DNA of 64,000 nt from Acanthamoeba sp. SK_2022b (Eukaryota > Discosea > Longamoebia > Acanthamoebidae), in contig JANDJZ010001754.1 in NCBI GenBank assembly GCA_027943245.1, forward strand, positions 124,001 to 188,000. The letters run 5' to 3'. The position numbers were made by a program, and so were the translations under genes. Below are positions 5,517 to 26,160 of the stretch, piece by piece; position 1 is the stretch's first letter; the number at the start of each line of letters is the position of its first letter. The notes beneath the pieces are model-generated. The model was not told where the DNA came from and did not search any database. It saw only the letters and a program-made list of their open reading frames with translations.

Positions 5517-5518
5517 AG

Positions 5519-6871: not shown

Positions 6872-7785
6872 TGATTTGCCTCCTGACGCAGAACGTCGAA
6901 GTCGGCAACCCAGTGAGGGAACAACTCGCAGGCCAGCTCATACATAGTGTCAGCAGCAGCGAGCGTTGATGTACGGGTGGTGGTTCTTTCGAGACGATGA
7001 ACAGGTTGGCCGGAAGCATGCCCCATTTTGTAAATTTCAAGCTTGGGGATGATGGTGTCGAGAAGGGAGACGTCGAAGGTATCTGCACGCAGATACTGCC
7101 CGTTTGCGATAATGCCGCGCAGACTGTTCAGGGTCTGCCAATCCAGATTCGTATACTCCATGCAGTTCGTCAGAATACGGATACGCGGTAACGCAATACC
7201 GTAGCTGGACAGTGGCAATAATCCCTCCATCAACCCCAATGTGCCACGCAGAAACTCACGCGTATCCGGCAATATAGGCTTGATAACACCGACGGCGAAC
7301 TCCGTACTGGCAACAAGAATGAGTTCGAGCATCACAGACGCTGCACCTTTGGAGTCAATAACGATAACGTCGTACTCGTTGAACAAAGGGTGCTGCAGAA
7401 CATTCTTCAGCCGCATACGACCATCAGGGGCATGCAACATGGCAGAGGATAAACGGTCGTGGGGATCGTTGGAAACGATGATGTCTAAATTTGGGATAAC
7501 AGAACGGGAGATGATTTCTTCGGGGTGATTGAGATCTACTGTCTTCATCAACAGTTCATACAAACCGTTGGGGGCTTCATATTCCAGGGAGAAAATGCTG
7601 CTTGCGGTGGGTTGGGAGTGGTCACCATCGATGAGGAGAGTTTTTTTACCTGCATCGGCAAGGAAGCCGGCAAGGTTGGCGCTTTGAGTGGATTTACCTT
7701 CGCCCCCTTTGGTTGAGACCATAGGGATAACGCGAGGTGCCGGGTGGCTAACACCCATAGATGTGGATTTAGCTAACTTATGCAT
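6868..7785 (-). CDS. parA: ParA/Soj-type partition ATPase
   Basis: A 305-residue ParA-type ATPase. The deviant Walker A motif KGGEGKST is at residues 26-33, followed by LLIDGDHSQPTAS; the Walker B region is VIVIDSKGA. It is the first gene of the block and the last before the tRNA-Phe attachment repeat, the usual place of soj/parA in PAPI-1/SPI-7 elements. No good Shine-Dalgarno sequence precedes ATG 7785; instead a long palindrome starts 3 nt upstream (7788-7819), suggesting control of transcription or translation at this site. Confidence 0.9.
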   Translation of the reverse strand: MHKLAKSTSMGVSHPAPRVIPMVSTKGGEGKSTQSANLAGFLADAGKKTLLIDGDHSQPTASSIFSLEYEAPNGLYELLMKTVDLNHPEEIISRSVIPNLDIIVSNDPHDRLSSAMLHAPDGRMRLKNVLQHPLFNEYDVIVIDSKGAASVMLELILVASTEFAVGVIKPILPDTREFLRGTLGLMEGLLPLSSYGIALPRIRILTNCMEYTNLDWQTLNSLRGIIANGQYLRADTFDVSLLDTIIPKLEIYKMGHASGQPVHRLERTTTRTSTLAAADTMYELACELFPHWVADFDVLRQEANQ

Positions 7786-7787
7786 GT

Positions 7788-7819
7788 TTTACACTCGAAT
7801 TTATCAATTCGCGTGTAAA
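7788..7819. promoter_or_regulatory. Near-perfect inverted repeat in the parA leader
   Basis: TTTACACTCGAATT (7788-7801) and AATTCGCGTGTAAA (7806-7819) pair over 14 bp with one mismatch around a 4-nt centre. It occupies the place of the parA ribosome site and promoter. It may be an autoregulatory operator, a parS-like centromere, or a hairpin hiding the start codon. Confidence 0.7.
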
Positions 7820-7861
7820 CGGTTAAATTATATATCCTTTAACAATCTTGCAACAAGCACA

Positions 7862-7910
7862 GGGATTGAAAATCCCCGTGTCCTTGGTTCGATTCCGAGT
7901 CCGGGCACCA
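7862..7910 (+). other. Attachment repeat: 3' part of tRNA-Phe (GAA) without its 5' half
   Basis: From the anticodon arm (GGGATTGAAAATCCCC) through the T arm (TTGGTTCGATTCC) to the acceptor 3' strand with CCA, 49 nt match the enterobacterial tRNA-Phe known to me. The D arm and 5' acceptor strand are absent (the preceding bases do not match), so it is not a working tRNA. tRNA-Phe is the integration site of SPI-7-type elements, and parA is the gene next to it, so this is the distal attachment site. The intact tRNA and the integrase should lie beyond the left edge. Confidence 0.9.
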
Positions 7911-7919
7911 TATTTAGAG

Positions 7920-7943
7920 AACCCAGCCTATGGCTGGGTTTTT
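7920..7943 (+). terminator. Terminator in tRNA repeat unit 1
   Basis: AACCCAGCC, loop TAT, GGCTGGGTT followed by a T run. It matches the terminator normally placed just after the tRNA. Confidence 0.85.
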
Positions 7944-8081
7944 CGCTTTCTGGAGTACGGACTCTCCATCGAACTACGTTCGATTATTCGGCCCAAAGTC
8001 CTCACCCTGCGGGCCAGCGCTAAAGCGCTGTTCAACCCGGCGCAGGTGCCGGTTGTCCGAGTCCGGGCACCATATTCAGAG

Positions 8082-8106
8082 AACCCAGCCTATGGCTGGG
8101 TTTTTG
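8082..8106 (+). terminator. Terminator in tRNA repeat unit 2
   Basis: Same hairpin as in unit 1 (AACCCAGCC, TAT, GGCTGGGTT) followed by TTTTG. Confidence 0.85.
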
Positions 8107-8243
8107 CTTTTCAGGGACAGGACTCTCCATCGAACTGCGTTCGATTATGAGGCCTGAAGGCCTCACCCTGCGGGCCAGCGCTAAAGCGCTGTTCAACGCG
8201 GCGCCAGCGCCGGTTGTCCGAGTCCGGGCACCATATTCAGAAT

Positions 8244-8265
8244 AACCCGCCTATGGCGGGTTTTT
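8244..8265 (+). terminator. Terminator in tRNA repeat unit 3
   Basis: AACCCGCC, TAT, GGCGGGTT plus T run. The A/T-to-G/C change on one arm is matched on the other arm compared with units 1 and 2, so the hairpin itself has been kept. Confidence 0.85.
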
Positions 8266-8529
8266 CGTTTTCTGGGATACGGACTCTCCATCGAACTACG
8301 TTCGATGATGCGGCCAAGGGCCTCGCTCGGAAGAAGGCAAAGTGCAGCGCGTGGTCGATCTGCGGCCGCGCTGAGGCGCAGTACATACATAGCGGGACAT
8401 CAGCAACGTCCTAAGCTCGAGGATTGGCTCAATGGCTGAGTGTCTAAAAGCATCCGCTGCAATGCTCTCGTGCAGAACTATTCCTACAAAACGGACTCCG
8501 GCATTGATCGCGACCAGAGCCGAGAAGAA

Positions 8530-8946
8530 CTATATAGTTAATGAACGTATACCGAATAACTGTTTGAGCTGAAAATCAACGGCTGGAAGAACCGGTGAAA
8601 ATAAATGACGAGTGGTTTTATACGGAAAAATTTTTCCCTGGTTTACTATGTGGTCTCTGATTTTTAACGGGCAGAAGGGCTCACCATTATTCCAGTCGTG
8701 TACTCTCACGCGTACATCAGTATAATCAAGCAATATACAAGGAAGGTACATTAGCCCAAGATTATTGGCCACACGATATCGATGGTTGCCATCCATAATG
8801 ATCCCCGTGTGCTTTTCAATGGGAACGGGTGTTATCCATTTTTGGCAACGCGCTATCTCCTCTGTTAATGCTATAACATGTTCCATATTGACCTCTTCAG
8901 AGGGACGGATCAAGGCAACTGGGTGTAATATTACCTCATACTGCAT
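8530..8946 (-). CDS. Small ParB/Srx-fold protein, SbnI-like N-domain (possible serine kinase)
   Basis: A 138-residue protein started at ATG 8946 after AGGTGAGGTGA, 7 nt behind the class V PLP gene, so it is the last gene of the siderophore operon. It has the ParB/Srx core: LHPVALIRPSEE, then PVPIEKHTGIIMDGNHRYRV with the DG(N/H)HR signature. In staphyloferrin B clusters SbnI, a ParB-like free L-serine kinase, makes O-phosphoserine for SbnA. This protein is about half the length of SbnI (about 250 residues) and lacks its C-terminal part. Kinase function is inferred from the fold and the presence of an SbnA homologue; a regulatory role is possible. Confidence 0.65.
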   Translation of the reverse strand: MQYEVILHPVALIRPSEEVNMEHVIALTEEIARCQKWITPVPIEKHTGIIMDGNHRYRVANNLGLMYLPCILLDYTDVRVRVHDWNNGEPFCPLKIRDHIVNQGKIFPYKTTRHLFSPVLPAVDFQLKQLFGIRSLTI

Positions 8947-8953
8947 GTTCACC

Positions 8954-10138
8954 TCACCTGAAATTTTCAAGGGCATTAAGTAAGATATCTATCTCATCTT
9001 CACTGTTATACGCATGAACGGATGCACGAACGACTGACTCCAGCCCACGATTTCGCATGTCAATGAATGTCGAACTAAATCGAGAACATGAGACATTAAT
9101 TCGACGTGGTTGAGCCGATAGGTATTCCTTAACAGATTCAGCTGTTTTATTTTTAACTGTAAATGTAACTATTCCTGATAGATTATCTCCTTTATCCTGT
9201 AACTGAACGTGCGTTATACATTTCAGGCCTAAGCGAAGTTGCTTAGCCAACTTAAAAATTCTTTGCGTTACTTTATCCTGCCCTAACGAAAGCGCATATT
9301 TCGCGGCAGCCCCCAGGCCAAGCCTGTCAGCGATATTTGCCTCCCAGCATTCGAATCGTCGGGCTCCCTCGCTAATATGATAACTCTGCTCATCTATAAG
9401 TCTTGCAGCATGGTGATCAAGCCACACCGGTTCAATATTCGAACTCAGGGTGCTGTCCATCCATAAAAAACCCGTACCGCGTGGAGCTCGCAGGTATTTA
9501 CGCCCTGAGGCTGTTAACACGTGGCACCCAATTTTTTGGACATCAAGTTGTAAATGTCCAATACCCTGGCAAGCATCAAGGAAAAACCACACGCCAGCAT
9601 CACGAGCAAGGGCGCCCATTTTTTCTACCGGCTGTATTGGTCCCCCATGAGTTCCCAGTATTGGGAGGCTGATTAATCTGACCCGAGGGTTGCCAAGGGC
9701 ATGTTGTAATTGCTTCAGACAAACAGCCCCCTCCTCATCCGCTTCCAGAATGTTGATCTGAATGCCATCACGTTTTTGTCGTTGCAGGTAAGGTATATAA
9801 TTACCTGCATATTCAGTGGTCGAAGTCAGGATGATATCTCCAGGGCGCAAGGGAAGAGAGTAGAATGCGATGTCCCAGGCCCGGGTAGCATTTTCCACAA
9901 GCGCGATATCTGCAGGCTTTGCCTGGATCATTTTCGCCAGATAACCATATATATCACTAAGCCATTGGCGCTCACTCTCTGCGGCTTCATACCCACCGAG
10001 GGTAATTTCTTTTAAATAGTGTTCATGCACAGCCTGTATAACCGGGACAGGCATTAAGCTTGCTCCTGCATTGTTAAAATGAATAACATGCTCAGTCCCT
10101 GGCGTGTCAGCGCGGAGTTGTGCCAGACTTAACGTCAT
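8954..10138 (-). CDS. Class V PLP-dependent enzyme (aminotransferase/cysteine desulfurase fold)
   Basis: A 394-residue fold-type I PLP enzyme. It starts HFNNAGASLMP, has the cofactor-binding aspartate/glutamine segment FFLDACQGIGH and the Schiff-base lysine in ASGRKYLRAPRGTG near residue 213. The ATG at 10138 follows GAGGAGA and overlaps the binding-protein gene by 32 nt. The HFNN.GA.L start recalls the isopenicillin-N-epimerase/C-S-lyase branch more than true cysteine desulfurases. Its substrate is unknown: it could modify an amino-acid building block or tailor the siderophore. The sbn, acs and pvs clusters known to me contain no matching enzyme. Confidence 0.8.
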   Translation of the reverse strand: MTLSLAQLRADTPGTEHVIHFNNAGASLMPVPVIQAVHEHYLKEITLGGYEAAESERQWLSDIYGYLAKMIQAKPADIALVENATRAWDIAFYSLPLRPGDIILTSTTEYAGNYIPYLQRQKRDGIQINILEADEEGAVCLKQLQHALGNPRVRLISLPILGTHGGPIQPVEKMGALARDAGVWFFLDACQGIGHLQLDVQKIGCHVLTASGRKYLRAPRGTGFLWMDSTLSSNIEPVWLDHHAARLIDEQSYHISEGARRFECWEANIADRLGLGAAAKYALSLGQDKVTQRIFKLAKQLRLGLKCITHVQLQDKGDNLSGIVTFTVKNKTAESVKEYLSAQPRRINVSCSRFSSTFIDMRNRGLESVVRASVHAYNSEDEIDILLNALENFR

Positions 10139-11267
10139 GGTTATTCTCCTCTTTTTTCAGGCTTACCATATACCCGGATTGATACGGAACGGGAAGAAAT
10201 TCCTGATGCATACGACGGAATGTGTCATCAGGGGCCAGGTCCGCGAATAATTGTGGATGTATCCATCTGGCGAGTTGCTGGATGGCAATAACGTCATACG
10301 GGCTGTTGTAGAACTGATGCCAGATGGCGAAAAATGCGCTATTACGGCGGGCAGTGCTATCTGCATAAGCTGGACGGGTGGTGAACCATGCCAGCTTACG
10401 CCTGGACTCCTCGATATTGACGCCCGGTCCGAGAGGGATCCACCTTCCGCCAGGAACGAAGGCCTGAAAATTCCCGCTGGTGAGTATGACGACATCAGGA
10501 TTTGCAGCTATCACCTTTTCAGGATTTAGCGTAAAAAATGAACCGGGAGCAAGATTGGCTGCGATATTGTCTCCTCCGGCTAATTTAACAAAACGCCCAA
10601 AACTCCCCTTTCCAAAGGTCATACAGCATTCTTCTGAATAACCTCCAAGACGTTCTAAAAATACCTTTGGCAATGGCTTCTGTAATTTTAAAGTCCTGGA
10701 TATGACGCGTTGTAACTCACTATCGCGAAACTTTAAATAGGCTTCAGAGCGTTCCGATTGACCAAATAACTCGCCAAATAGTTTCACTGTAGGAGGAATA
10801 TGTGCAATAGGGTCATACCGAAAATCCACATAGACAATTGGGATACCCGCACTGGCAAGTGCGGCTTCATACCCTGAGTCAACAATGGCATTTCGCGCAT
10901 CCATATTCATGATGATGACGTCAGGTTTCAAATTAATAGCCTGTTCGATATCGAAGGTCCCTTGCTCGCTGCCTCCAAATGTCGGGATTTTCTCCAGTTG
11001 TGGAAACTGTTGCCGGTACTGCTGCCATGTTGCCGGATCTGACTGTATTAAATCTTTCCGCCAGGCCACTATCCTCTTGGCAGGATTTTCTTTATCAAGC
11101 ATTGCGACCAGATACAGTTGGCGCCCTTCCCCAAGGATGACACGCTGTACCGGTAATTTGATGTTAACGGTTCGGCCAAGGAGATCGGTTACAGGCGTCA
11201 CCGTCTGTTCAGCATGAGCAACTGATGAGGTTAACAATACAATAAAGAGCACAAGTCGTAATATCAT
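10107..11267 (-). CDS. Periplasmic iron-siderophore-type substrate-binding protein
   Basis: A 386-residue protein with a Sec signal peptide (MILRLVLFIVLLTSSVAHA). The body fits the cobalamin/Fe-siderophore binding family: TVTPVTDLLGRTVNI, then INLKPDVIIM and KVIAANPDVVILTSG, the usual two-lobe pattern. It would carry the ferric chelate from the outer-membrane receptor to an ABC permease. No permease or ATPase gene is nearby, so it must borrow a transporter from elsewhere. At 386 residues it is longer than FhuD or FepB (about 300). The start overlaps the MFS stop as ATGA. Confidence 0.85.
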   Translation of the reverse strand: MILRLVLFIVLLTSSVAHAEQTVTPVTDLLGRTVNIKLPVQRVILGEGRQLYLVAMLDKENPAKRIVAWRKDLIQSDPATWQQYRQQFPQLEKIPTFGGSEQGTFDIEQAINLKPDVIIMNMDARNAIVDSGYEAALASAGIPIVYVDFRYDPIAHIPPTVKLFGELFGQSERSEAYLKFRDSELQRVISRTLKLQKPLPKVFLERLGGYSEECCMTFGKGSFGRFVKLAGGDNIAANLAPGSFFTLNPEKVIAANPDVVILTSGNFQAFVPGGRWIPLGPGVNIEESRRKLAWFTTRPAYADSTARRNSAFFAIWHQFYNSPYDVIAIQQLARWIHPQLFADLAPDDTFRRMHQEFLPVPYQSGYMVSLKKEENNHDVKSGTTPR

Positions 11268-12490
11268 TTTTCATAACCTATTTTCTTGTTGAATTCCCTT
11301 GAAGAACGGCTGATTTTTAACGTAATCATTAAAGTCATGGAATACATGACCACAACGCAAAGAAACAACGCTGACAACCCCGGCCAGAGAAGGACTACGC
11401 CCCCCAAAGCAATACCTATGATGGAGGCGAACTGGCTGATGCTCTGGACCACCCCCAATATATACCCTTGCATACCTTCGGCTGTTGTGCGCGAAATTAA
11501 TGCGGTAAGCACAGGCGTGGTTGCGCCAAGGAGAATTCCCCATAAAAAATAAAGCCCGATGAACCAGCTGGTTTCCCTTACTGTAGCCAGCAGCAGTGTT
11601 ACCAGGATACATCCCATGATGATCCCCACCATTCGGTAGAGCGTGCTGGCTATATCGTGCGCTTCAAACCATCTTGCCCAGAGAGACGCTGATACAATCA
11701 CTCCCGTAGCCTGTAATCCATAAGCTAATCCTGTTAGCCAATTAGGGGCATTGAACACCGTGCTGACATAAAGAGAAAAAGGCGTTTGCGTAATCATGCG
11801 GCTCATTAATAACAAGCCAAGAACCGTCAGTAAGCCAACAATGACGCCATTGTTGATTCCAGTTGGAGTCCTTTTCTTATCTTTTGAATGAACAGCTGAA
11901 GTAGACGAGACTCCATGAGGAGCATCAGCAGGTAATATGAAAAGAACAATCAGTGCACATAGCGTACAAATAATGAATGCGCTGACGTTTATCCAGAAGA
12001 AACTCAGTAGATCGAGAATGGCTCCCCCGATAATCGCCCCTGCCAAAGAGCCTGCGTTGGTCGACACCTGCAACCAGGCAAAAAGTCTCGTACGCTGTGC
12101 CGCTGGCACCATTGCAATACCATAGGCCTGCGCCGGCGCAATATAACCCGCACAGGTACCCTGTAAAAAACGTAAAATAAGCACCAGCCAGACGTCATTG
12201 GCGAAAGCAAGCCCAAGTTGCGTTAATGCCAGGCCCATCAGTGCGCGGATCATCATGACTTTATTGCCCGTTTTGTCGCCTACCCGCCCCCAGAATGTGC
12301 TGGTTAGCATAACGCCAAGCATCGGTGCTATATACACCCCTGTGCCAGCGATGCTCAATAGTTCTGTGGACGTCATGCTTTCGATATGAAGCGGCCAAAA
12401 AGGGCCGCTCATTTCCATCGCTCCCATCGAAAGTAGTTGCACGATAAACAGAAACTGGACAATAAAAGTCACACTGCCCGTTACGCGCAT
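11264..12490 (-). CDS. MFS transporter, likely siderophore exporter
   Basis: A 408-residue 12-helix major facilitator protein. ATG 12490 is chosen because AAGGAGGG lies 7 nt before it; an ATG at 12496 is only 1 nt from that site. The family loop between helices 2 and 3 reads FWGRVGDKTGNK. MFS exporters sit in most NIS clusters (SbnD, PvsC, FslB), and the position between the opine dehydrogenase and the binding protein fits secretion of the finished siderophore. Export is inferred; uptake cannot be excluded. Confidence 0.8.
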   Translation of the reverse strand: MRVTGSVTFIVQFLFIVQLLSMGAMEMSGPFWPLHIESMTSTELLSIAGTGVYIAPMLGVMLTSTFWGRVGDKTGNKVMMIRALMGLALTQLGLAFANDVWLVLILRFLQGTCAGYIAPAQAYGIAMVPAAQRTRLFAWLQVSTNAGSLAGAIIGGAILDLLSFFWINVSAFIICTLCALIVLFILPADAPHGVSSTSAVHSKDKKRTPTGINNGVIVGLLTVLGLLLMSRMITQTPFSLYVSTVFNAPNWLTGLAYGLQATGVIVSASLWARWFEAHDIASTLYRMVGIIMGCILVTLLLATVRETSWFIGLYFLWGILLGATTPVLTALISRTTAEGMQGYILGVVQSISQFASIIGIALGGVVLLWPGLSALFLCVVVMYSMTLMITLKISRSSREFNKKIGYEK

Positions 12491-12492
12491 CC

Positions 12493-13650
12493 TCATTCCC
12501 TCCTTATCGTTGGCCAATCGGCGGGGATCGGGGAGCGGGCAATCTTCCCTCCCATATACTCGCAACACCAGTAATAGATTTCTTCTATATATGGTGTTGG
12601 CACCTTGAGCCTCTGGCCGATTAAAACCAGCAGGCTTAAACCGCAGCCAATATCTTCCCGAAAGACCCGATGGTTTTTGTCAAAAATAAAAGTGTCGGAT
12701 CGCCCTTCGCGGATCAGAGGCAGCGGGATCCCCTCATAGGCCTTATTCGTTCGTAAAATACTGAGGAGTGTTCTGGGGTCAGAAATTGAGTCACCGTATG
12801 CCTCGACTATTTCCTGCTGCAATGGCTGCACAGAGCTGAGATCGATACCCAGTGAAAGTTCGGCAGCTTTACATAAGGCCTGATTTTCCTCATCACAGCG
12901 AGCAAGGAAATAAGCACCGAGTTCAGGGCAATCACTCCACCAACACGGAATATGATTGAAAGCATGCCCGTGCCACTGCCCCCATGGGCCGATGAGGCCA
13001 TAAATGACGGAACTGTGCATGATTGGATTTCCTGGTGTAAGGGTAATCTCCAGATAATTAGACAGCAGAGTGACGGGAGCCTCATAAAGCTGCCTCAGAT
13101 AATCAAGCAGAATATCGGTATTCTCAGGTGTTTCCCGGCGATGAACAGCCACGTACAACTGTGATTTCTCCCCCCCTATCCTGACACTTTTTCCGGGTAC
13201 AAGATCAAACGCAATATGGGGGACATCTTTCATGCCCCATATAACAATATTCGATAAGCCTCCAAATGCTTTTTCTGCCAGCCAGTCAAATCCGCCAAAA
13301 CCGGGAATGGCTCCGACGAAGACCTGCTTATGCCGGGGCAGCGCTGGCGCGATGCTTTGAAGCACGCTTTCGCGTACATGGCTTGGGGCAGTAATGATAA
13401 TGAGATCTGCAGCGGCGCAGGCTTCATCGACTGACGCCGTCATCCTGACGGCAGAGGCTTTTATGACATTTGCGTCAGGCATGATCGCATGCAACTGAGC
13501 GCCACTGCCTTGATATGCGGTGACAGTTTCTGGCCGGCTAGTGTAAAGAGTTACTGCAACTGCGGGATTTTGACTGAATAAAATGGCAGCAAGGTGGCCC
13601 GTACGGCCGGCCCCACATATTGTTACCCTTAACTTCTCGCCTGAGAACAT
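12493..13650 (-). CDS. NAD(P)-dependent opine (octopine/nopaline-type) dehydrogenase
   Basis: A 385-residue protein with an N-terminal Rossmann domain (VTICGAGRTGHLAA, residues 9-22) and a C-terminal octopine-dehydrogenase domain in which NPIMHSSVIYG near residue 213 carries the expected catalytic histidine. Family members form or cleave N-(carboxyalkyl)amino acids; CntM/OdhD make staphylopine and pseudopaline. No nicotianamine-synthase-like gene is present. It directly follows the SbnA homologue (TAATG overlap), where SbnB normally stands. The SbnA product ACEGA is chemically an opine, so this enzyme may split it to diaminopropionate and 2-oxoglutarate, or act the other way to attach a keto acid. 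Family is firm; reaction is inference. Confidence 0.85.
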   Translation of the reverse strand: MFSGEKLRVTICGAGRTGHLAAILFSQNPAVAVTLYTSRPETVTAYQGSGAQLHAIMPDANVIKASAVRMTASVDEACAAADLIIITAPSHVRESVLQSIAPALPRHKQVFVGAIPGFGGFDWLAEKAFGGLSNIVIWGMKDVPHIAFDLVPGKSVRIGGEKSQLYVAVHRRETPENTDILLDYLRQLYEAPVTLLSNYLEITLTPGNPIMHSSVIYGLIGPWGQWHGHAFNHIPCWWSDCPELGAYFLARCDEENQALCKAAELSLGIDLSSVQPLQQEIVEAYGDSISDPRTLLSILRTNKAYEGIPLPLIREGRSDTFIFDKNHRVFREDIGCGLSLLVLIGQRLKVPTPYIEEIYYWCCEYMGGKIARSPIPADWPTIRRE

Positions 13651-14663
13651 TATTCTCCCTCCTGAACAGAAGAGAGTGCAAACCAGCCATCAAGTTTCTC
13701 CCAGACTTGCTCGGAGAGAAGATCCCGTTCTTTGAGCCACTCCTCATTGAAGATCGTATTTAGATATTTTTCACCGCCATCTGCAATAACGAGAGCCACA
13801 TTCCCCCGAATCGTTCCATTATTGATAAATTCCAACGCTTTATATATTGCACCACCGGTAGAACCGCCAACAAGCAGCCCGAAACGGCGCGCAAGATAGC
13901 GTGCAGTTTCAAAAGCGCAGACGTCGGAAACCTGTTCACCATAATCAATGCAGCTGTAATCCAGAACTAATCCGACGGTGTCTCCTTCCGGTGTGCCGGT
14001 CCCTGATTGATAATAGGGTTTTCCTGGCTTGCCAAATACGATAGAGCCTTCTGGCTCTACCGCGATCGTAACTGTATCCGGATTATGAACCTTGAGGCCA
14101 TGCGCTATCCCTGTCATCGAACCGCCAGTGCCAACACATCCAATCCACGCGTCGACTTTGCCAATCTGGCAGATAATTTCACGCACCAGGTCTGCATATC
14201 CACCGGCATTGGCCGCATTATCTGATTGGTTCATGAAAACTGCGCCGGGTATTTCACCTGCAATTTCAGCCGCCATACGCTGTCGTTCCACAACCGCGAC
14301 TTCATTTTCACCATAATTACCCTTAACGTAACGAATATCTGCTCCCAGAGCTCGCATGATGGTAATTTTATCCTGAGCGGCATGATGGTCCACCACTGCA
14401 ATAAATTTAAGCCCAAATTCGATAGCCGCAATGGCCAGGCCGATCCCCGTATTTCCTGATGATGATTCAACAATCGTCCCACCTGGTTGGATCCGCCCTG
14501 ATTTCAGCGCCGCAACAATCATATTTCTGGCCATGCGATCTTTCATGCTCCCGCCAGGATTGTTCTTCTCCACTTTGATATAAAGACGAGAGTCAGATTG
14601 CGCCAGCGGTAATTGAATGACGGGAGTATTGCCAATCAAATCAGTTACTTTTCTGAAGATCAT
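13650..14663 (-). CDS. sbnA: SbnA-like PLP synthase (diaminopropionate precursor synthesis)
   Basis: A 337-residue fold-type II PLP enzyme of the cysteine-synthase group. The PLP lysine is K41 in NNPGGSMKDRMA; the substrate loop is SSSGNTGIGLA; the phosphate loop is GTGGSMTGIAHG; and ALVIADGGEKYLNT lies near the C-terminus. The NPGGSMKDR form and the length suit SbnA, which joins O-phospho-L-serine and L-glutamate to ACEGA, better than CysK or CysM. Its neighbours (ParB/Srx protein, decarboxylase, NIS synthetase) repeat the sbn gene set. A cysteine- or cystathionine-synthase activity is the alternative. Confidence 0.8.
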   Translation of the reverse strand: MIFRKVTDLIGNTPVIQLPLAQSDSRLYIKVEKNNPGGSMKDRMARNMIVAALKSGRIQPGGTIVESSSGNTGIGLAIAAIEFGLKFIAVVDHHAAQDKITIMRALGADIRYVKGNYGENEVAVVERQRMAAEIAGEIPGAVFMNQSDNAANAGGYADLVREIICQIGKVDAWIGCVGTGGSMTGIAHGLKVHNPDTVTIAVEPEGSIVFGKPGKPYYQSGTGTPEGDTVGLVLDYSCIDYGEQVSDVCAFETARYLARRFGLLVGGSTGGAIYKALEFINNGTIRGNVALVIADGGEKYLNTIFNEEWLKERDLLSEQVWEKLDGWFALSSVQEGE

Positions 14664-14674
14664 TTTACAACTCC

Positions 14675-16075
14675 TTAATTGTCAACGGTAAAAATGAGGT
14701 TTTGGCGCGAGCTCATGACAGCGGTCAGTCTTGTGGGGAGCGGGTGCCGGTGGAACTGGTTTTCCAGTAAATCCATTTGGTAACCAGCGGTATTGGCAAA
14801 TATCAGCAAGTCGCCCGGTTCAGGCAGGTGCTTGAATGCAATCAGACGGTTAGTTATAACGTCCTCGTCAAGGCAACTATGACCCGCAATCCATGCTTTC
14901 GCAGCAGGAGATGGCTCATGAGAATTCTGACGAATATGAAGCGGATCGCTTAAGAATTCAGAGTTAAACCACGTTTCGCATGCACTGAAGCTACTTCCCT
15001 CGACAAAAATAACGTATCCGGAATCACCGTGAGGCCGGACTCGACATACACGAAAAACACTTATGGCGCTCTGGTTGGCCAGACTTCTTCCGGGCTCGAC
15101 ACACAGCGTTAATCCTTCATCGATTAATGCATCGCAGACTCTTTTACCCACAGGGCCCGCGCCGCCAAGAAACTGAGTGAGCCAGTGCTCAGCGTTTATA
15201 TCACCACCATAGGGATAGAAAGCATCCGGGACCCGTCGAGTACGATAATTTTCCTGCGTCTGTGAGGATAGCCATGCCTTATAGCAATTCCCCTCTACAT
15301 ACTGAACGGGCAACCCTCCCCCGATATCGATAATGCATGGGGAATGGCCAAGACTACGGGCGCAGGCAATCAACGGTAATGTGTCAAAAAAAGCGTTAAC
15401 CCTGGATACGGGCGAGTAGCCACTAAGATGGAAATGGAAGCCATCGATTTTTAATGGATTACAGGTCTCGAGTTTCTGAAGCACGGCACTCACTTCACTG
15501 GATGACATACCAAAACGGCTGGTATGGCTGAACGCGGGGCGAAGGCGCAGTAGTATACTGATTCGGCCTGTCGGGCTTTTCCAGCATTTAGCTACTTCCA
15601 TGAGATCGTCCATTTCCTCGACTGAATCCACGACAATCCGCGCCCCCTGCAGAATTAACTCCTGCAAAAAACGTATTGTTTTTGCAGGACCGGTGGCACA
15701 CAAATCGGTGCCTCTGCATCCAGCGCGGATAGCATCGTTGAGCTCATGCAGGCTGGATACATCAGCCCCTGTTCCGGCAGCGACGGCAGCCTGTAATAAC
15801 GACTGTGATTTATTGACTTTAACGCCATAATAAAATTTCGCTTCAATACCAAATCCCGCCGTAATAGCAGCCATCGCATTGAAATTATTCTCCACGGTAT
15901 GCGGCCAAACAATATTGAGCGGAGAACCGTAAATTTCTGATAAGCGAACAAGAGTATCAGGGGACGTCTCTAACCATCGGGCAATAACAGGATCCACATA
16001 GGGGGGTAATTCTCTGGCAGGGCTTACCCGCCATGAAGTGGTTTCCCGGCAATAGGTATTTAACAGCGAAGCCAT
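14675..16075 (-). CDS. Type III PLP decarboxylase, SbnH-like
   Basis: A 466-residue alanine-racemase-fold decarboxylase of the DapDC/ornithine decarboxylase group. PLP lysine K86 is in KFYYGVKVNK; further sites are GFHFHLSGYSP, IIDIGGGLPVQY and CVEPGRSLANQ. The catalytic Cys/Asp pair is in GHSCLDEDV and the closing tyrosine in NTAGYQMD, so it looks active. Related enzymes in NIS clusters (SbnH, AcsE, PvsE, FslC) decarboxylate a diamino-acid unit before or after its condensation with citrate. It lies 11 nt after the receptor stop. Substrate, free diamino acid or citryl-diaminopropionate, is not readable from sequence. Confidence 0.85.
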   Translation of the reverse strand: MASLLNTYCRETTSWRVSPARELPPYVDPVIARWLETSPDTLVRLSEIYGSPLNIVWPHTVENNFNAMAAITAGFGIEAKFYYGVKVNKSQSLLQAAVAAGTGADVSSLHELNDAIRAGCRGTDLCATGPAKTIRFLQELILQGARIVVDSVEEMDDLMEVAKCWKSPTGRISILLRLRPAFSHTSRFGMSSSEVSAVLQKLETCNPLKIDGFHFHLSGYSPVSRVNAFFDTLPLIACARSLGHSPCIIDIGGGLPVQYVEGNCYKAWLSSQTQENYRTRRVPDAFYPYGGDINAEHWLTQFLGGAGPVGKRVCDALIDEGLTLCVEPGRSLANQSAISVFRVCRVRPHGDSGYVIFVEGSSFSACETWFNSEFLSDPLHIRQNSHEPSPAAKAWIAGHSCLDEDVITNRLIAFKHLPEPGDLLIFANTAGYQMDLLENQFHRHPLPTRLTAVMSSRQNLIFTVDN

Positions 16076-16086
16076 ATTAAATCCTC

Positions 16087-18198
16087 TCAGAAATCAATGG
16101 TTACCGATGCAAGGAAGGTGCGTGGCGCTCCCTGCGCAATGGTGCTGTATGACGCCACGCCAGCCCAATAATGGCGATCTAACACGTTCTGAACATCAAA
16201 GCGGAAAGTTGCCGGTGTACCGTACACACGCGTTTTATAGGCAGCCCCCATATCTACCGTTGTCCAAGAACGGATAGACTGCGTATTCGCCTGATTGACG
16301 TACTGCTTCCCGCTGTAATTAACATGACTGTTCAGGGACAATCCCCGTAGGACAGGGAGGTCATATTCCACACCCGCGTTTGCTTGTACCGGGGAGACGC
16401 CAACGGGTTTGTTACCACGAACGCCGGTGGAGGGAGATTTGGTGAGCTCAGCATCAATCAGGGAAAGGCTTCCTGACATTCGCAAATTATCAAGAGGTTT
16501 ATGGGAGATATTCAGTTCAATTCCTCGGTTCCGCTGCTCGCTATTGGAATTGAATGTATTGTTACTGTCGATTGCACCACTCGGCTTCGTGATCTGGAAA
16601 AGAGCAAGACTGTTTTGGATTCCCGCCTCATCGTATTTAATGCCCACTTCGTATTGACGCGATCGGTATGGACGCATCACCTGACCTGCGTTTTGTGCCG
16701 TACCAGGGGCAACATCACCTTTGCTGAGCCCCTCAATGTAGTTGGCATACAGCGAAACGGGTTTCCAGGGACGGTAAACCAGGCCAAGCATCGGAGTGAC
16801 GGCAGAGTCATCATAGGTGGATGAACGATCGCCATTAGCGGCGAAGTTATCGGCACGAACCCTTTGGAGACGCACGCCTGGCGTGATGTCAACACGTCCA
16901 TCCAGTACGGTCATTGTGTCTGCAAGCGCGAGACCACTTAACTGGCTGGAGGAGGTTTTTGATACTCTGGCTGGCGCAGAAGGCAGGGTGACATCAACGT
17001 CTGACGGGGAATAAATATTGGAATCTACCGTTTGCCCCCAAGTGCTGGCGATTGCGAGGCGATCATGGTAATAACTGACCTGCAGCGTCGCCTGATGATC
17101 AATGGAACCGGTTGAAAAATAACTTCTTGCGCCAGCTTCTAAAGTATAACGATTCACCTTAAAGCGGAAATTAGTAATCGTCGAGACGACATCCCCTTTG
17201 TCGTTAATAATATTAGGGGTTTGCTCTGATATGCGTGAAACCATCGAGCGCCCACCGCCTGCATTCGCAAAAACGGTCACGTTGTCATTAATATCGTATT
17301 CTGTGTGTAGCAATGCCCCCTGATCCCGGATTTTCCACCACATCCCCTTTTGTGCGATGTTTGTCTTACCATCAGGAGCATCCGGAACATCAATGCCTGC
17401 AGCGACAGTGAAGGGGCGATTTGGGGATTTGACTCGCTGATATTGATCAAGCAGGTCAAGGGAAGCCCTCACCCCTCCGTTCCCATAATCGAGAGCAAGC
17501 GCGCCTAATGCCGTATTTTTATAGGCATTGTCGAGTGCCAAATCGCCACCACTACCGCCACCGTTAAAACGGATTCCCCACACCTCACCGTCCGGGGTAA
17601 CCCACAATTTACCGACATCGACGTATGCACCGAGTTGGTTGTTGGACTCCCAGGTGGTGGTGAGTCGTTTAATATCCTGAGCTGTAGCCCTTTTAGTCAC
17701 TGCGTTGATGACACCGCCAACCCCTCCATTCGGGGACATCCCATAGAGCCCCGCGCCCGGCCCCTTCAGTAACTCTATTCGTTCGAGATATTGCGGCAAT
17801 AATTGATAATTTGGTGCCACACCATAGACACCATTGAGTGCCACTTCACCGGTATTGCCTTCACCAATAGGGAATCCACGGATCATGAAAGAATCCAGGA
17901 TCCCGCCTGAAGGAGAGGTAACCCGCACGGATGAATCATTTTTTATAACATCGCCGAGAGATTTAGCCTGCCTGTCTTCAATGTATCGCGAGGTATATCC
18001 CTTGATACTGAATGGCGTATCATGAATGACTTTACTTCCTAATAAGCCAATGTTGGCTTGTTTGGATAGTTCATCTTCAGTTTGTGTAACAGCACTGTCG
18101 GCGGTAACGACAACGGTATCTTCCGCGTTCGCAATATAAGGAATTAAAATTTCTACAACAGCCAAAACCAGAAACTTCTTTCTACGATTCATAACCAT
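16087..18198 (-). CDS. TonB-dependent ferric-siderophore receptor
   Basis: A 703-residue outer-membrane receptor. A signal peptide ending IANA is followed by EDTVVVTA, a TonB-box-like segment, so there is no N-terminal signalling domain. The plug domain (DTPFSIKGYTS, IRGFPIGEGNTG, ERIELLKGPGAGLYG) precedes a 22-strand-type barrel that ends with phenylalanine (FLASVTIDF). The family resembles receptors for hydroxamate/carboxylate siderophores of the FpvA/FhuE/FcuA group. Second gene of the operon, 28 nt after the synthetase. ExbBD for energy are encoded at 43066-44046 and 42640-43062. Confidence 0.9.
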   Translation of the reverse strand: MVMNRRKKFLVLAVVEILIPYIANAEDTVVVTADSAVTQTEDELSKQANIGLLGSKVIHDTPFSIKGYTSRYIEDRQAKSLGDVIKNDSSVRVTSPSGGILDSFMIRGFPIGEGNTGEVALNGVYGVAPNYQLLPQYLERIELLKGPGAGLYGMSPNGGVGGVINAVTKRATAQDIKRLTTTWESNNQLGAYVDVGKLWVTPDGEVWGIRFNGGGSGGDLALDNAYKNTALGALALDYGNGGVRASLDLLDQYQRVKSPNRPFTVAAGIDVPDAPDGKTNIAQKGMWWKIRDQGALLHTEYDINDNVTVFANAGGGRSMVSRISEQTPNIINDKGDVVSTITNFRFKVNRYTLEAGARSYFSTGSIDHQATLQVSYYHDRLAIASTWGQTVDSNIYSPSDVDVTLPSAPARVSKTSSSQLSGLALADTMTVLDGRVDITPGVRLQRVRADNFAANGDRSSTYDDSAVTPMLGLVYRPWKPVSLYANYIEGLSKGDVAPGTAQNAGQVMRPYRSRQYEVGIKYDEAGIQNSLALFQITKPSGAIDSNNTFNSNSEQRNRGIELNISHKPLDNLRMSGSLSLIDAELTKSPSTGVRGNKPVGVSPVQANAGVEYDLPVLRGLSLNSHVNYSGKQYVNQANTQSIRSWTTVDMGAAYKTRVYGTPATFRFDVQNVLDRHYWAGVASYSTIAQGAPRTFLASVTIDF

Positions 18199-18226
18199 TA
18201 TCTCGAGTCCCAGAGTTACCGGCGTA

Positions 18227-20086
18227 TCAATCAGCTAAAGGATTATTAAGGCCGTGCTGAAGTCGATAATCAGTATATTGTTGTAAATGCATGCTCATTA
18301 ATGAGCGGGTATACCAGGGATGGTTCATAAAATGCTCGCGTTCCTGATGCCAGAAGCTGTCATCTAGCCTTGGGTGAAGTTCTTTAAATACATGGTCAAG
18401 TTCTTCGCCAATAACTTTCCACATACGGTTATCTTGGATGCAATAGAAGTGAGTCAGGCAAAGGGCGATTTCATGTAAATGACTGACAAGGCAAGCATCC
18501 ACGACGAAGGTTCTGACGGGTTCAATATCATCTTCAAACACCGTGGGTAAAATGCCAGGCCAGATATAAGGCTTGAGTTCGTAACCTTGCTTACGGAGTG
18601 CCGGGGCCCAGCTGCGGCCATCGCCGAAGTCACGGATAAGCATGGCCACAGCGCGGCCGGAATCATCAAATAAAACCTGCGTATTTTGTTGGTGTGCTTC
18701 AAGCGCCACGCCATAAATCAAATACATAGCCAAGACCGGTTTCAGTATGATCCGGGTGTAATGACGAAACCATGTCTCAGGCGTGTATCCTGACAAGGCA
18801 ATCAGCTCACTGATAAGGGGATCGGATTTATGCGGGAGGGCGGTAAATAGCGATGCAACCGTGATAGCCAATGAATTATCGTTTCTTTTCCACGCATCCG
18901 TACTACGAAACACGACGGAGAGAAACTTACCCTCAGCGTCATCCATACGATCTTTATGACGGAAGTGCCATGCGGCATCTTCCCGGAAAAAGTCGAGTTT
19001 GCCGTCAAAACCCTGCTCCACATCCAGGATATCCTCAATAATCGTACTAATACGCGGCCCCATGTGAATGGATTTAGCCTGGAGGCTACGCATCTCACTG
19101 GTCATCCATATGGCAACGGGCAATTTTATAAAAGGCAATGCCGGGGCCGTCGGAAGCATAGTTCTGAACGACATTGAGGGTGCGGTTTCAATTTCGGGAC
19201 CAAATGGCAAAAGAATGCCTTCGTCTATTTCTTTGGCGAAATGACCCAAGACCCAATGTTCAAGATGCCAGGGGTGAAGGGGAATGGGCAGCCATTCTTG
19301 AGGGTTGTGATGTTGACTTTCGAGCCAGGCGCACCATTCACTCCAGACGCCAGGAAAGGCCGATGACAGCCATTGATGGGTATCCTGAACATGAGGCATC
19401 TTCTCGCAATAAACCATGTCGGCCTGTATGGCTCCCATGCGAAGAATGACTCGGGCTCCAAATTCGGCGGACAGGGCCTCGATGTCTTCATCGTTTAATC
19501 CAGGCCGGGACTTCCAGGTAGGATAATAAGGGTGGCCTTCCAGAGATCCCCACTGGTCCAGGAGAGTCGCCCCCTCTCTCAAACTGTGATGGCGTCTTAT
19601 CCATTTAACAAAATAAGACTCCCCCTCTTTCTCCATGTCTTTAGTAATGCTATTCCGCCATTTTGACCGATGCGCTCTGGCCAGCCGGTCATTATGGATA
19701 CTGTTAGCAACATCTTTATTGAATTTAGCTATACCCTCAGCCGAAGGGCTGAAACTAAATTCATTTTTCAGGACGTCGATCAGTTGTTCATGTGACAGAA
19801 TCGGTGTTTTGCTCCCGTCGGCTGCCTCGAGGATAATATCACCACGATTAATAACACTATTCGCCGGAAAAACCGCCGTTAGATTTAGCCGAAGGGTATA
19901 TTCTCCATCAGAGAGGCGGTAATTAACCCTACTTTTATCATCGAAAATCTCAAGTTTCTTTTCATCAAGTAGTTTTTCCGAAAAAAGACAACGAATTATT
20001 CGAGAGAGTGCGTTACGAGCCGAAAAATCAGGTTGTGTTGAAAGTGCCTGTCTCGCAAAGCCATTCTCCTCTGCCAGCTCCATCAT
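18227..20086 (-). CDS. NIS siderophore synthetase (IucA/IucC family)
   Basis: A 619-residue synthetase. ATG 20086 is 4 nt and ATG 20083 is 7 nt from GGGAGA; either is possible. Family motifs are intact: GHPYYPTWKSRPGL near residue 184, IPLHPWHLEHW, APSMSFRTMLPT, KLPVAIWMTSEMR, and EAHQQNTQVLFD with RDFGDG near residue 462. Such enzymes adenylate a carboxylate, usually citrate, and join it to an amine or alcohol. It is the first gene of the operon and the only synthetase, as in rhizoferrin loci and unlike staphyloferrin B (three) or aerobactin (two). A single enzyme suggests one repeated condensation, for example two citrates on one diamine. Confidence 0.92.
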   Translation of the reverse strand: MMELAEENGFARQALSTQPDFSARNALSRIIRCLFSEKLLDEKKLEIFDDKSRVNYRLSDGEYTLRLNLTAVFPANSVINRGDIILEAADGSKTPILSHEQLIDVLKNEFSFSPSAEGIAKFNKDVANSIHNDRLARAHRSKWRNSITKDMEKEGESYFVKWIRRHHSLREGATLLDQWGSLEGHPYYPTWKSRPGLNDEDIEALSAEFGARVILRMGAIQADMVYCEKMPHVQDTHQWLSSAFPGVWSEWCAWLESQHHNPQEWLPIPLHPWHLEHWVLGHFAKEIDEGILLPFGPEIETAPSMSFRTMLPTAPALPFIKLPVAIWMTSEMRSLQAKSIHMGPRISTIIEDILDVEQGFDGKLDFFREDAAWHFRHKDRMDDAEGKFLSVVFRSTDAWKRNDNSLAITVASLFTALPHKSDPLISELIALSGYTPETWFRHYTRIILKPVLAMYLIYGVALEAHQQNTQVLFDDSGRAVAMLIRDFGDGRSWAPALRKQGYELKPYIWPGILPTVFEDDIEPVRTFVVDACLVSHLHEIALCLTHFYCIQDNRMWKVIGEELDHVFKELHPRLDDSFWHQEREHFMNHPWYTRSLMSMHLQQYTDYRLQHGLNNPLAD

Positions 20087-20225
20087 ATTTTCTCCCAAAG
20101 TAAGAGGGTTGAAACGATTAGGCGTAAATTGAGAACCTTAAGATCAACGTGATATTTCATTGCTCTCTCAGGTTCCTTGAAAACTTTCAGTCACTACGCT
20201 ACCATCAAAATAAATTCATGTAAAT

Positions 20226-20244
20226 GATAATCAATATCATTCTC
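20226..20244. promoter_or_regulatory. Fur box between the divergent siderophore transcripts
   Basis: GATAATCAATATCATTCTC matches the 19-bp Fur consensus at 15 of 19 positions. It lies 140 nt upstream of the NIS synthetase start and 59 nt upstream of the CitE-like start, placed to repress both promoters when iron is plentiful. Confidence 0.85.
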
Positions 20245-20302
20245 ATAACTGTAATCCATGATGAGAGAATCAATTTATATCAATCACTTAGGCGGACAAG
20301 GT

Positions 20303-21127
20303 ATGAGTATAGAGATTAGCTATTTGTTTATCCCTGCTAATAAAGAGGTAATGTTTTCGAAGGCGTTGGCCAGTGGTACCGATGCGATCATTATTGATCT
20401 TGAAGATGCTGTTCATCCGAACGAAAAGCCCCTTGGGCGTGATAACGTTCTGAGTTGGCTACATAAAATTAATAAGAGCAGCGTTAAAACCGGAATATAT
20501 ATCCGGATAAATCATCCAAACGACAAGGAATTTGATGACGACATCAGTTTACTCAATTCATTAAATAAGCCATTGATTACGGGTGTGATGGTGCCAAAAC
20601 TGGAATGCAGTGAAACGATAAACCATTTGAAGTCGAGGCTTAATGCCGGAATATCAAGGCTACCCTTTATCGGCATCATAGAAACGGCGCGAGGATTGTA
20701 TCACTGTGAGAGTATAGCCTGTAGCGGTGTGGTCAGATTAGCGTTCGGCTCTTTAGATTATTCGCACGATATTAATTGTCTGCAAACACCTGAGGCACTT
20801 CTCTATGCGAGAAGTCGTATCGTGGTGGCTTCACGGCTTGCCAACCTACCGCCCCCTATTGATTGCGTCACCCCCGAATTTTGTACGCCCGAAACGTTGT
20901 TAACGGATTGCTGCCATGCCCGATCTCTTGGATTCAGTGCGAAATTATGTATTCATCCGGATCAAGTCGATGTGGTTGCCAAAGCATTTAGCCCTACTGA
21001 GGAACAAATTAAATGGGCTGAAGAAGTGTTAAAACAGTCCAGAGAGAGTTATGCATTCCAGATCGGAGGTTCGATGGTAGATTTACCTTTAATAAAACAG
21101 GCGGCCCGTTTAATGGACAATAAATAA
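20303..21127 (+). CDS. CitE/HpcH-type lyase, probable citrate supplier for the siderophore
   Basis: A 274-residue TIM-barrel protein of the HpcH/HpaI-CitE family. ATG 20303 is chosen over 20258 because GGCGGACAAGG stands directly before it and residues from SYLFIPANK onward match the family start. Active-site segments are IIIDLEDAVHP (metal/acid), IGIIETARGL (Glu), LAFGSLDYSHDI and KLCIHPDQ. SbnG and AcsB, members of the same superfamily, make citrate for staphyloferrin B and achromobactin outside the TCA cycle. It is alone on the plus strand and shares the Fur-controlled region with the operon. A malyl- or citramalyl-CoA lyase function is the alternative. Confidence 0.8.
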   Translation: MSIEISYLFIPANKEVMFSKALASGTDAIIIDLEDAVHPNEKPLGRDNVLSWLHKINKSSVKTGIYIRINHPNDKEFDDDISLLNSLNKPLITGVMVPKLECSETINHLKSRLNAGISRLPFIGIIETARGLYHCESIACSGVVRLAFGSLDYSHDINCLQTPEALLYARSRIVVASRLANLPPPIDCVTPEFCTPETLLTDCCHARSLGFSAKLCIHPDQVDVVAKAFSPTEEQIKWAEEVLKQSRESYAFQIGGSMVDLPLIKQAARLMDNK

Positions 21128-21150
21128 ATCAGAATGGACATATTAGCAAC

Positions 21151-21189
21151 CCACTCAAATAATATTAATCATAATTATTATTTGAGTGG
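21151..21189. terminator. Hairpin after the CitE-like gene
   Basis: CCACTCAAATAAT and ATTATTTGAGTGG form a perfect 13-bp stem around a 13-nt loop, 24 nt after the CitE-like stop. No clean T run follows on either strand, so it is a terminator only by position and shape. Confidence 0.55.
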
Positions 21190-24809: not shown

Positions 24810-24859
24810 ATACAAGAACGTCTTAATCATTGTCACTACGCTTTGATGGAATTACGTAT

Positions 24860-25744
24860 ATGAAAAGACAAGTCATTAAATTTATTACAAAGCAGCTGGC
24901 CGTATTGGCCCCCGAATTCAAGGCCAGATTGCTCTACAAAAAAGCATTTGGCAAACCGTTGAACTTGCAGGCGCCATCCACCTGGAATGAAAAGATCAAT
25001 CACCTGAAGTTGAATGGCTATAGTCACAATGCGTTGGTGAAGCAGTGTGCAGATAAATATGCGGTAAGACAGTACATCAAAGATCAAGGGTGCGAAGAGA
25101 TCCTTAATGAATTGTACTTTGCCTGCGATTCAGTGAACGATATTCCGTGGGACGCATTACCGGATAAGTTTGTGATCAAAGGGAATCACGGTTCCGGTTA
25201 TAACCTGATTTGCCAGAATAAAAAATTGCTGAATATCAAGAGCGCCAAAAAATTGATCGATGGCTGGATGAAAGACGATTATTGGAAAACCTATGTAGAG
25301 CTCAACTACAAAGGGATACAAAAAAAGATCATTGGGGAGAAATATATCGAATCGGCCAATGGTCACGGGCCTGAAGACTATAAAATCTATTGCTTCCGCG
25401 GTGTGCCTTACTGCACGTTGTTGTGTGTCGGCAGAGATACCGGGTCGCCGAAGTATTACTTCTTTGACAAAGATTTCAAGTTTCTGTGCTACAGCGATGA
25501 CTGCCTGGCCTTGAGCCAGGAAGAAATAGACGCCTTCGTGAAGCCAGAAGGCTACGATGAGCTGTTTGAGTATGCTTCACGCTTGTCCGCGCCCTTCGAG
25601 TTTGTTCGCGTTGATTTCTACATCTCCAAAGGCCAGATCATTTTCGGCGAATTGACCTTTACCCCCTCCGCCGGGCTGGATACGGATATCCTGCCGCCAA
25701 CCGATGTTTTGCTTGGCGAGATGTTGACGTTGCAACAGCACTGA
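24860..25744 (+). CDS. TupA-like ATP-grasp protein
   Basis: A 294-residue protein. ATG 24860 is preferred to an upstream in-frame TTG at 24830. It matches the ATP-grasp group often labelled glycosyltransferase or TupA-like: NEKINHLKLNGY near the start, DKFVIKGNHGSGYNLIC as the ATP-binding strand, PEDYKIYCFRGVPY and FEFVRVDFYISKGQIIFGEL with the metal-binding acidic residues near the end. ATP-grasp enzymes form amide bonds from carboxylates and amines. The pairing 50 nt after an N-hydroxylase suggests ligation of a hydroxylated amine, but such genes also occur in polysaccharide loci. Confidence 0.8.
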   Translation: MKRQVIKFITKQLAVLAPEFKARLLYKKAFGKPLNLQAPSTWNEKINHLKLNGYSHNALVKQCADKYAVRQYIKDQGCEEILNELYFACDSVNDIPWDALPDKFVIKGNHGSGYNLICQNKKLLNIKSAKKLIDGWMKDDYWKTYVELNYKGIQKKIIGEKYIESANGHGPEDYKIYCFRGVPYCTLLCVGRDTGSPKYYFFDKDFKFLCYSDDCLALSQEEIDAFVKPEGYDELFEYASRLSAPFEFVRVDFYISKGQIIFGELTFTPSAGLDTDILPPTDVLLGEMLTLQQH

Positions 25745-26103: not shown

Positions 26104-26160
26104 GCTAAACAACGTTGATAACCGTGTGTTTTCACCCTTCTTCGCCGTTTGCTCACCCAC

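Follow-up and report, generated by a model that had tools for sequence, protein, structure and literature searches.

An apparently complete and probably horizontally moved siderophore cluster of the proteobactin/rhizobactin type, with rhizobactin B as its predicted product, on a contig of an Acanthamoeba assembly

Contig JANDJZ010001754.1 of the Acanthamoeba sp. SK_2022b assembly (GCA_027943245.1) carries a siderophore locus with a single NRPS-independent siderophore (NIS) synthetase, which we compare here with the proteobactin (pbt) operon of Proteus mirabilis and with strains reported to produce rhizobactin. All coordinates below are positions in the window, i.e., the whole stretch of 64,000 nt analysed (positions 124,001 to 188,000 of the contig, forward strand). 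Pfam and NCBIfam searches identified ten open reading frames (ORFs), all in frame, with nine arranged head to tail on the minus strand and a tenth transcribed divergently (Table 1). This confirms, gene by gene and strand by strand, the ten-gene NIS siderophore locus described in an earlier reading of the letters alone (the sequence-only reading). The start codons of the synthetase and the exporter were set from the annotated homologues in Serratia marcescens E28, as the ORFs themselves run on to 20098 and 12568, respectively; the annotated start of the E28 lyase homologue corresponds to about 20303 in the window. The Fur control proposed in the same reading is consistent with a Fur-like 15-mer, TGATAATCAATATCA, in the divergent promoter, which differs from TGATAATNATTATCA at one position. 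Matches to the Fur box with at most 3 mismatches numbered 8 in the window, compared to 1.39 expected, and none of 100 shuffles reached 8; the match in the divergent promoter is the only one of the 8 with fewer than 3 mismatches. A protein search with the window synthetase found one IucA/IucC match in the whole assembly.

Table 1. Features of the siderophore locus and its boundary (window positions)
Feature	Coordinates	Strand	Evidence
tRNA-Phe tail at island boundary	7862..7910	+	100% to annotated E. coli tRNA-Phe
Block common to the window and S. marcescens E28 pE28_003	8467..21159	.	blastn, 96.4-96.6% identity
SerK/SbnI-like candidate minimal free L-serine kinase ("ParB/Srx", pbtH position)	8530..8976	-	NCBIfam, PDB profile, AlphaFold/Foldseek
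Class V pyridoxal phosphate (PLP) enzyme	8954..10138	-	Pfam class V aminotransferase
Periplasmic ferric-siderophore binding protein	10107..11267	-	Pfam Peripla_BP_2
Major facilitator superfamily (MFS) exporter, FslB-like	11264..12490	-	Pfam MFS_1; FslB 144 bits (cut-off 600)
Octopine-dehydrogenase-family opine dehydrogenase, predicted pyruvate-dependent	12493..13650	-	Pfam Octopine_DH
SbnA-like synthase	13650..14663	-	Pfam PALP; NCBIfam TIGR03945
Y4yA/SbnH/LysA-like fold III PLP decarboxylase	14675..16075	-	Pfam Orn_Arg_deC_N
TonB-dependent siderophore receptor	16087..18198	-	TIGR01783 330 bits, above cut-off
Single NIS synthetase (IucA/IucC)	18227..20086	-	PF04183 + PF06276 (IucA_IucC + FhuF)
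Fur-like box, divergent promoter	20225..20239	+	1 mismatch to TGATAATNATTATCA
RipC/CitE-like lyase, predicted (citra)malate supplier	20258..21127	+	Pfam HpcH_HpaI

The smallest of the ten proteins, a 148-aa product first read as "ParB/Srx", had no Pfam match and matched the NCBIfam SerK model weakly (35.9 bits; cut-off 380), while a profile search of the PDB retrieved SerK (E 1e-11) and SbnI (E 5e-5). Its AlphaFold model (predicted local distance difference test [pLDDT] 90.2) had SerK or SbnI as all of its top nine Foldseek matches, if 1vk1, annotated as a "conserved hypothetical protein" of Pyrococcus furiosus and ranked first in both the Foldseek and the profile search, the latter alongside SerK, is counted as a SerK homologue. 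Residue E27, which aligns with the E30 that is mutated in the SerK PDB entries, is Glu in 36 of 37 homologues, and D62 is kept in all 37. With both the SerK/SbnI fold and the catalytic Glu and Asp in place, the protein looks like a minimal serine kinase of the SbnI/SerK type. For the SbnA-like synthase, TIGR03945 (SbnA) was the best NCBIfam model (237 bits; cut-off 350). Homologues of the decarboxylase carry the Y4yA family annotation, and its profile matches in the PDB were diaminopimelate decarboxylases, 6knh/6kni and N-citrylornithine decarboxylase. The nearest solved relative of the opine dehydrogenase is octopine dehydrogenase (3c7a, E 5e-35).

These matches bear out the earlier description of the locus as a mixture of staphyloferrin-B-like (SbnA, SbnH, SbnI), rhizoferrin-like (FslA, FslB, FslC) and opine-like (octopine dehydrogenase) parts. 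That it is a rhizoferrin-type locus is nevertheless very improbable: the synthetase, exporter and decarboxylase do match FslA, FslB and FslC (285, 144 and 20.6 bits), yet these scores fall far under the cut-offs of 1000, 600 and 500, and we know of no role in rhizoferrin assembly for an opine dehydrogenase, an SbnA-like synthase or a serine kinase. With the opine metallophores of the staphylopine type the locus shares a dehydrogenase predicted to couple a keto acid with an amine; it differs from them in that this enzyme belongs to the Octopine_DH family and in having a NIS synthetase. A nicotianamine-type opine metallophore was considered and rejected; Pfam found no nicotianamine-synthase-like gene among the ten.

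A much closer counterpart is the P. mirabilis proteobactin operon pbtABCDEFGHI (Himpsl 2010). In the part available to us of a 2024 review that lists this operon gene by gene (PMC11026637), it comprises a synthetase, a TonB receptor, a decarboxylase, a PLP synthase, an opine dehydrogenase, an MFS protein and a binding protein, together with a "hypothetical" gene that corresponds to the SerK-like gene of the window and, on the other strand, a citrate-lyase-like gene. Gene order in P. mirabilis ATCC 29906 is that of the window minus the class V gene, and the two regions share 75.8% DNA identity over 11 kb. The differences are that the window adds the class V PLP gene, while in P. mirabilis the lyase gene adjoins FecCD and ATPase genes. 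The window thus holds a new carrier of the already known pbt/rhizobactin system, and the contention of the sequence-only reading that no described cluster combines these parts does not stand, the class V gene excepted. The same part of the review calls PbtA a type B synthetase, suggests oxaloacetate as its acid substrate and contains no structure for proteobactin (PMC11026637).

The product was addressed through published rhizobactin producers. Rhizobactin, originally from Sinorhizobium meliloti DM4, links alanine, lysine and malic acid to ethylenediamine; in rhizobactin B the malic acid is exchanged for citramalic acid, and nuclear magnetic resonance (NMR) puts the amide at its CH2-side carboxyl; Pseudomonas sp. 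FEN makes both, as identified by mass spectrometry and NMR, with rhizobactin B in the larger amount (PMC7676072, from the part of the paper at hand). Contig NZ_CAJFDC010000013.1 of the published FEN assembly (PMC7849696) carries homologues of all ten window genes, arranged differently in that the kinase and lyase genes are grouped on the other strand and the receptor gene is preceded by one of FecR type. The FEN genome has one IucA/IucC match and one Octopine_DH match, which are adjacent genes. The rhizobactin 1021 pathway requires two IucA/IucC synthetases; a rhizobactin-1021-like route in FEN was rejected on the single match found where two were expected. A second producer, by the title of a 2023 paper, is Caballeronia mineralivorans PML1(12) (Blanco Nouche 2023). 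Its genome likewise has one IucA/IucC match, located within this cluster, where a contig break falls in the dehydrogenase gene and divides the cluster over two contigs (our loci L048 and L101). One of the two contigs, of 11,272 bases, ends with the receptor, the decarboxylase, the SbnA-like gene and the dehydrogenase up to its 59th aligned residue. Between them, the two contig ends hold the receptor, decarboxylase, SbnA-like, dehydrogenase, synthetase, MFS, binding protein and serine-kinase-like genes, and neither a lyase nor a class V gene. P. mirabilis ATCC 29906, Pseudomonas batumici and Pectobacterium betavasculorum show one IucA/IucC match each; all of these match counts are lower bounds.

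Two strains published as rhizobactin producers each show a single IucA/IucC match, which lies within this cluster; this makes a citrate-based product unlikely, and hence the citrate-diamine carboxylate that the sequence-only reading had proposed. The product is most likely a rhizobactin, composed of a hydroxy acid, lysine, ethylenediamine and alanine as an opine; the opine group, offered in that reading as a possibility, is accordingly probable in this form, and the locus corresponds in large part to a described cluster (pbt) with a known class of product. The alternative closest to the original proposal is a staphyloferrin-B-like pathway, in which the SbnA-like synthase and the opine dehydrogenase, standing in for SbnB, would give L-2,3-diaminopropionate, the synthetase would add citrate and the SbnH-like enzyme would decarboxylate the conjugate. 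SbnA-, SbnH- and SbnI-like genes do occur together in the window, and an opine dehydrogenase working in the opposite direction could take the place of SbnB. The staphyloferrin B (sbn) locus has three NIS synthetases (SbnC, SbnE and SbnF) in addition to SbnB, while the window has one synthetase, an opine dehydrogenase whose nearest solved relative is octopine dehydrogenase, a different acid and, by Pfam and NCBIfam, no SbnB-like gene among the ten. As rhizobactin itself, in the available account of its structure (PMC7676072), contains no citrate, we regard such a pathway as improbable.

Each bond of rhizobactin, as drawn in the same account (PMC7676072), pairs with one enzyme class in the locus, and from this we infer a six-step route, including its order and its end product in this strain. 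The SerK/SbnI-like kinase would form O-phospho-L-serine, whose phosphate the SbnA-like synthase would exchange for the alpha-amine of lysine; the Y4yA/SbnH-like decarboxylase would then take off the carboxyl that derives from serine, so that an ethylenediamine arm is left, and the opine dehydrogenase would reductively join pyruvate to the free amine to give an N-(1-carboxyethyl) (alanine opine) end. The RipC-like lyase, acting in the synthetic direction, could provide citramalate from pyruvate and acetyl-CoA, or malate from glyoxylate and acetyl-CoA, and the IucA/IucC synthetase would form the amide between the CH2-side carboxyl of this acid and the epsilon-amine of lysine. The MFS protein would export the siderophore, and the TonB receptor and binding protein would re-import it.

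The linkage of these genes was assessed in contigs of species-representative genomes scanned with the opine-dehydrogenase alignment only; the best 80 of 98 relatives were kept and their loci searched with the ten window proteins, a gene being called present at a coverage of at least 50%. A four-gene core (decarboxylase, SbnA-like synthase, IucA/IucC and MFS) was found in 78 of the 80 loci. Individually, each of these four genes was present in 79 loci, the TonB receptor in 76, the serine-kinase-like gene in 74, the binding protein in 68, the lyase in 33 and the class V gene in 24. Both loci short of a core gene (L017 and L048) end at contig ends. By contrast, four plasmid-borne, divergent Octopine_DH genes (22-40% identity; 4 of 46 records) have different neighbours and, by a gene table that is incomplete, all lacked an annotated IucA/IucC gene within 8 kb. 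Linkage of this extent in a scan seeded by the dehydrogenase indicates that the gene set is more than a chance assembly and, together with the contrast genes, that this dehydrogenase clade belongs to a siderophore locus. Carriers include Pectobacterium, rhizobia, insect symbionts and Proteus; megablast found no match in E. coli genomes. In the two Arsenophonus loci the cluster is kept and the best lyase alignments span only 12% and 36% of the query, which suggests lyase loss in progress. The same island is reported from Hamiltonella, in a source available in part, and in strain hApis_5AT it is degraded.

The lyase is the component that may decide between the two rhizobactins. Its best named NCBIfam model is RipC (151 bits), followed by CitE (111 bits), both under cut-off; RipC is the C-C lyase of itaconate degradation, a citramalyl-CoA lyase. 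Its best PDB relatives are acyl-CoA lyase beta chains (8khl first), with the mitochondrial citrate-lyase-beta-like protein lower. All 23 Pseudomonas loci have the gene, as do 9 of 11 from Enterobacterales (the remaining two being the Arsenophonus loci with their shorter alignments), 1 of 27 from Alphaproteobacteria and none of 19 from Betaproteobacteria. For the tree and residue comparisons, in which a lyase was scored at 10% or more of its length aligned, so that both Arsenophonus copies counted as present, 2 of 83 loci were left out (L017 and L051, with synthetase coverages of 0.39 and 0.79). In the resulting tree of 82 synthetases, lyase-bearing and lyase-free loci separate with two label changes, a lyase-free Cupriavidus locus being the exception on the lyase side; the window and FEN fall on the lyase side, and PML1(12), Sinorhizobium and other rhizobia on the other. 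Two residues beside the conserved EGHP motif follow this division: R198 occurs in 36 of 36 synthetases with a lyase and 1 of 46 without, and Y191 in 35 of 36 and 2 of 46, the other side having F and K at positions 191 and 198. The lyase branch (Pseudomonas, most Enterobacterales loci and Bosea) mostly has the synthetase motif HPYYPTWK[SA]R, and the lyase-free branch (Burkholderiales, Rhizobiales) mostly HPFYPTWK[SA]K. Bosea sp. Tri-44, the sole lyase-bearing locus among the 27 alphaproteobacterial ones, has a rearranged gene order and a synthetase that groups with those of Pseudomonas (support 81), a possible cross-class transfer.

Since the lyase is a marker of the clade to which FEN belongs, and may be the source of citramalate for the siderophore, rhizobactin B is our best single guess for the product. 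Overall, we consider it highly probable that the window carries a horizontally moved, complete-looking cluster of the pbt/rhizobactin type, with rhizobactin B as predicted main product and rhizobactin as minor congener. A wider proposal, to which we give even chances, is that proteobactin is identical or closely related to rhizobactin B, and that the pbt-like loci of all Proteobacteria form one rhizobactin family of two branches, of which the lyase branch uses citramalate made by its RipC-like lyase and the lyase-free branch malate.

The class V PLP enzyme fits least well. Its putative PLP lysine (K214) is invariant and its mean column identity is 78% over 15 aligned copies; its structure model is poor (pLDDT 68). 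A role as cysteine desulfurase is not supported, as in these 15 copies the position that we take to be that of the catalytic cysteine, in a region of INVS[C/T/R]S type, varies and holds no conserved cysteine. The enzyme might instead tailor the product of the same pathway into a new rhizobactin congener other than rhizobactin B; its place inside the operon, its conservation and its presence in almost a third of the loci speak for this, while FEN has the gene and yet, in the part of the report available (PMC7676072), yields only rhizobactin and rhizobactin B. We think tailoring unlikely.

Several points weigh against the main reading of a pbt/rhizobactin-type cluster that makes rhizobactin B. 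SbnA itself takes glutamate, not lysine, and the SbnA-, SbnH/LysA- and SerK-like assignments all fall under NCBIfam cut-offs. None of the six steps accommodates the class V enzyme, whose gene was not seen in the Caballeronia PML1(12) and Proteus stretches compared. Because the synthetase tree shows only two label changes, the tracking of residues 191 and 198 represents at most one or two independent events and is no proof of specificity; the link between lyase and citramalate rests on one or two evolutionary changes, perhaps on a single historical split, and as FEN makes both congeners the rule is not absolute. Homologues of the Proteus FecCD and ATPase genes were not found in the window, the locus has no inner-membrane importer gene, and the family counts of the genome search are lower bounds. 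Finally, the FEN paper, in its available part, leaves the biosynthesis open and points to two rhbAB homologues, rhbAB being genes from the structurally different hydroxamate rhizobactin 1021 (PMC7676072).

Evidence for transfer comes from composition and from a second carrier. The cluster has a GC content of 47.7%, compared to 61.7% for 31-64 kb of the window, in agreement with the lower GC noted previously. A tblastn search of plasmid records with the synthetase gave, among the matches listed, 95.8% identity to S. marcescens E28 pE28_003, 77% to P. mirabilis and 45-48% to rhizobia. All ten genes recur in the E28 record, where an IS903B element interrupts the decarboxylase (5784-8250 of our locus L002), and by blastn nothing outside the 12.7-kb block is common to the window and the 19.6-kb E28 stretch compared; the block lies beside an AI-2E-family transporter and an alcohol dehydrogenase in E28, whereas in the window its neighbours are the end of an island and a tRNA-Phe tail. 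A block shared between unrelated flanks indicates that the cluster moved as a unit, in line with the transfer suspected from the sequence. The E28 "plasmid" is a linear record with flanks of chromosome type (solA and DUF2770, which we take to be chromosomal genes). That the cluster is decaying and no longer makes a siderophore could be argued from the absence in the window of matches to the Proteus ABC permease and ATPase genes, the interrupted E28 decarboxylase, and the degraded Arsenophonus lyases and Hamiltonella island; as none of the ten window ORFs is interrupted and each aligns over nearly its full length with homologues, and as the Fur-like box is a good one, we hold this to be improbable.

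The attachment site beside tRNA-Phe proposed in the sequence-only reading stood in part: 49 nt are identical to annotated E. coli tRNA-Phe and are presumably the 3' end of that gene, but this is a tail only, ARAGORN finding no tRNA in the window. Beside it, the genes at 564-7785 (an STY4528-family replication protein, DUF2786/DUF7168, DnaB and ParA) look, by their families, like the end of an SPI-7-type island, and the siderophore block begins about 550 nt outside that island. Three direct copies of a unit made of the last tRNA-Phe bases and a terminator-like hairpin, spaced by 161-162 nt, occupy 7894-8276 and look like repeated attachment-site tails. By its metC-yqhD-dkgA flank, we take the contig to be from an enterobacterium; the flank at 31-55 kb had no good match in the plasmid collection, and the metC-yqhD region matched Klebsiella at 79.8% over 18% of the query. 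The assembly comprises 44.9 Mb in 1129 contigs, and this seems to be an enterobacterial contig, from a contaminant or a symbiont, within a larger and perhaps eukaryotic assembly. Elsewhere in the window, 23514-27284 holds a gene of the lysine/ornithine N-hydroxylase family (nearest model histamine N-monooxygenase, under cut-off), followed by genes for a TupA-like ATP-grasp protein and a putative esterase; no second synthetase match occurs in the assembly, and these genes are possibly part of another, unusual metal-chelator locus. A full-length phosphocholine-specific phospholipase C gene (933 bits, above cut-off) lies at 33143-35290.

The structure of rhizobactin has been known since 1985, and SbnG is a dedicated aldolase-family enzyme that feeds a NIS synthetase. 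The reading given here joins a cluster known genetically (proteobactin, in Proteus) to a siderophore known structurally (rhizobactin). It also argues against rhizobactin 1021 genes as the source of rhizobactin B in FEN, as had been suggested in print. Among the papers available to us, a literature search found none that mentions "rhizobactin" as well as "proteobactin"; the argument made here may in part be anticipated by Himpsl (2010) or Blanco Nouche (2023). The six-step route and the malate-versus-citramalate rule can both be tested, and if the proposal of one family in two branches is true, the lyase would be a second dedicated aldolase-family enzyme that feeds a hydroxy acid to a NIS synthetase, beside SbnG. 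As Pectobacterium, rhizobia, insect symbionts and Proteus carry the same cluster, its product matters for how all of them compete for iron.

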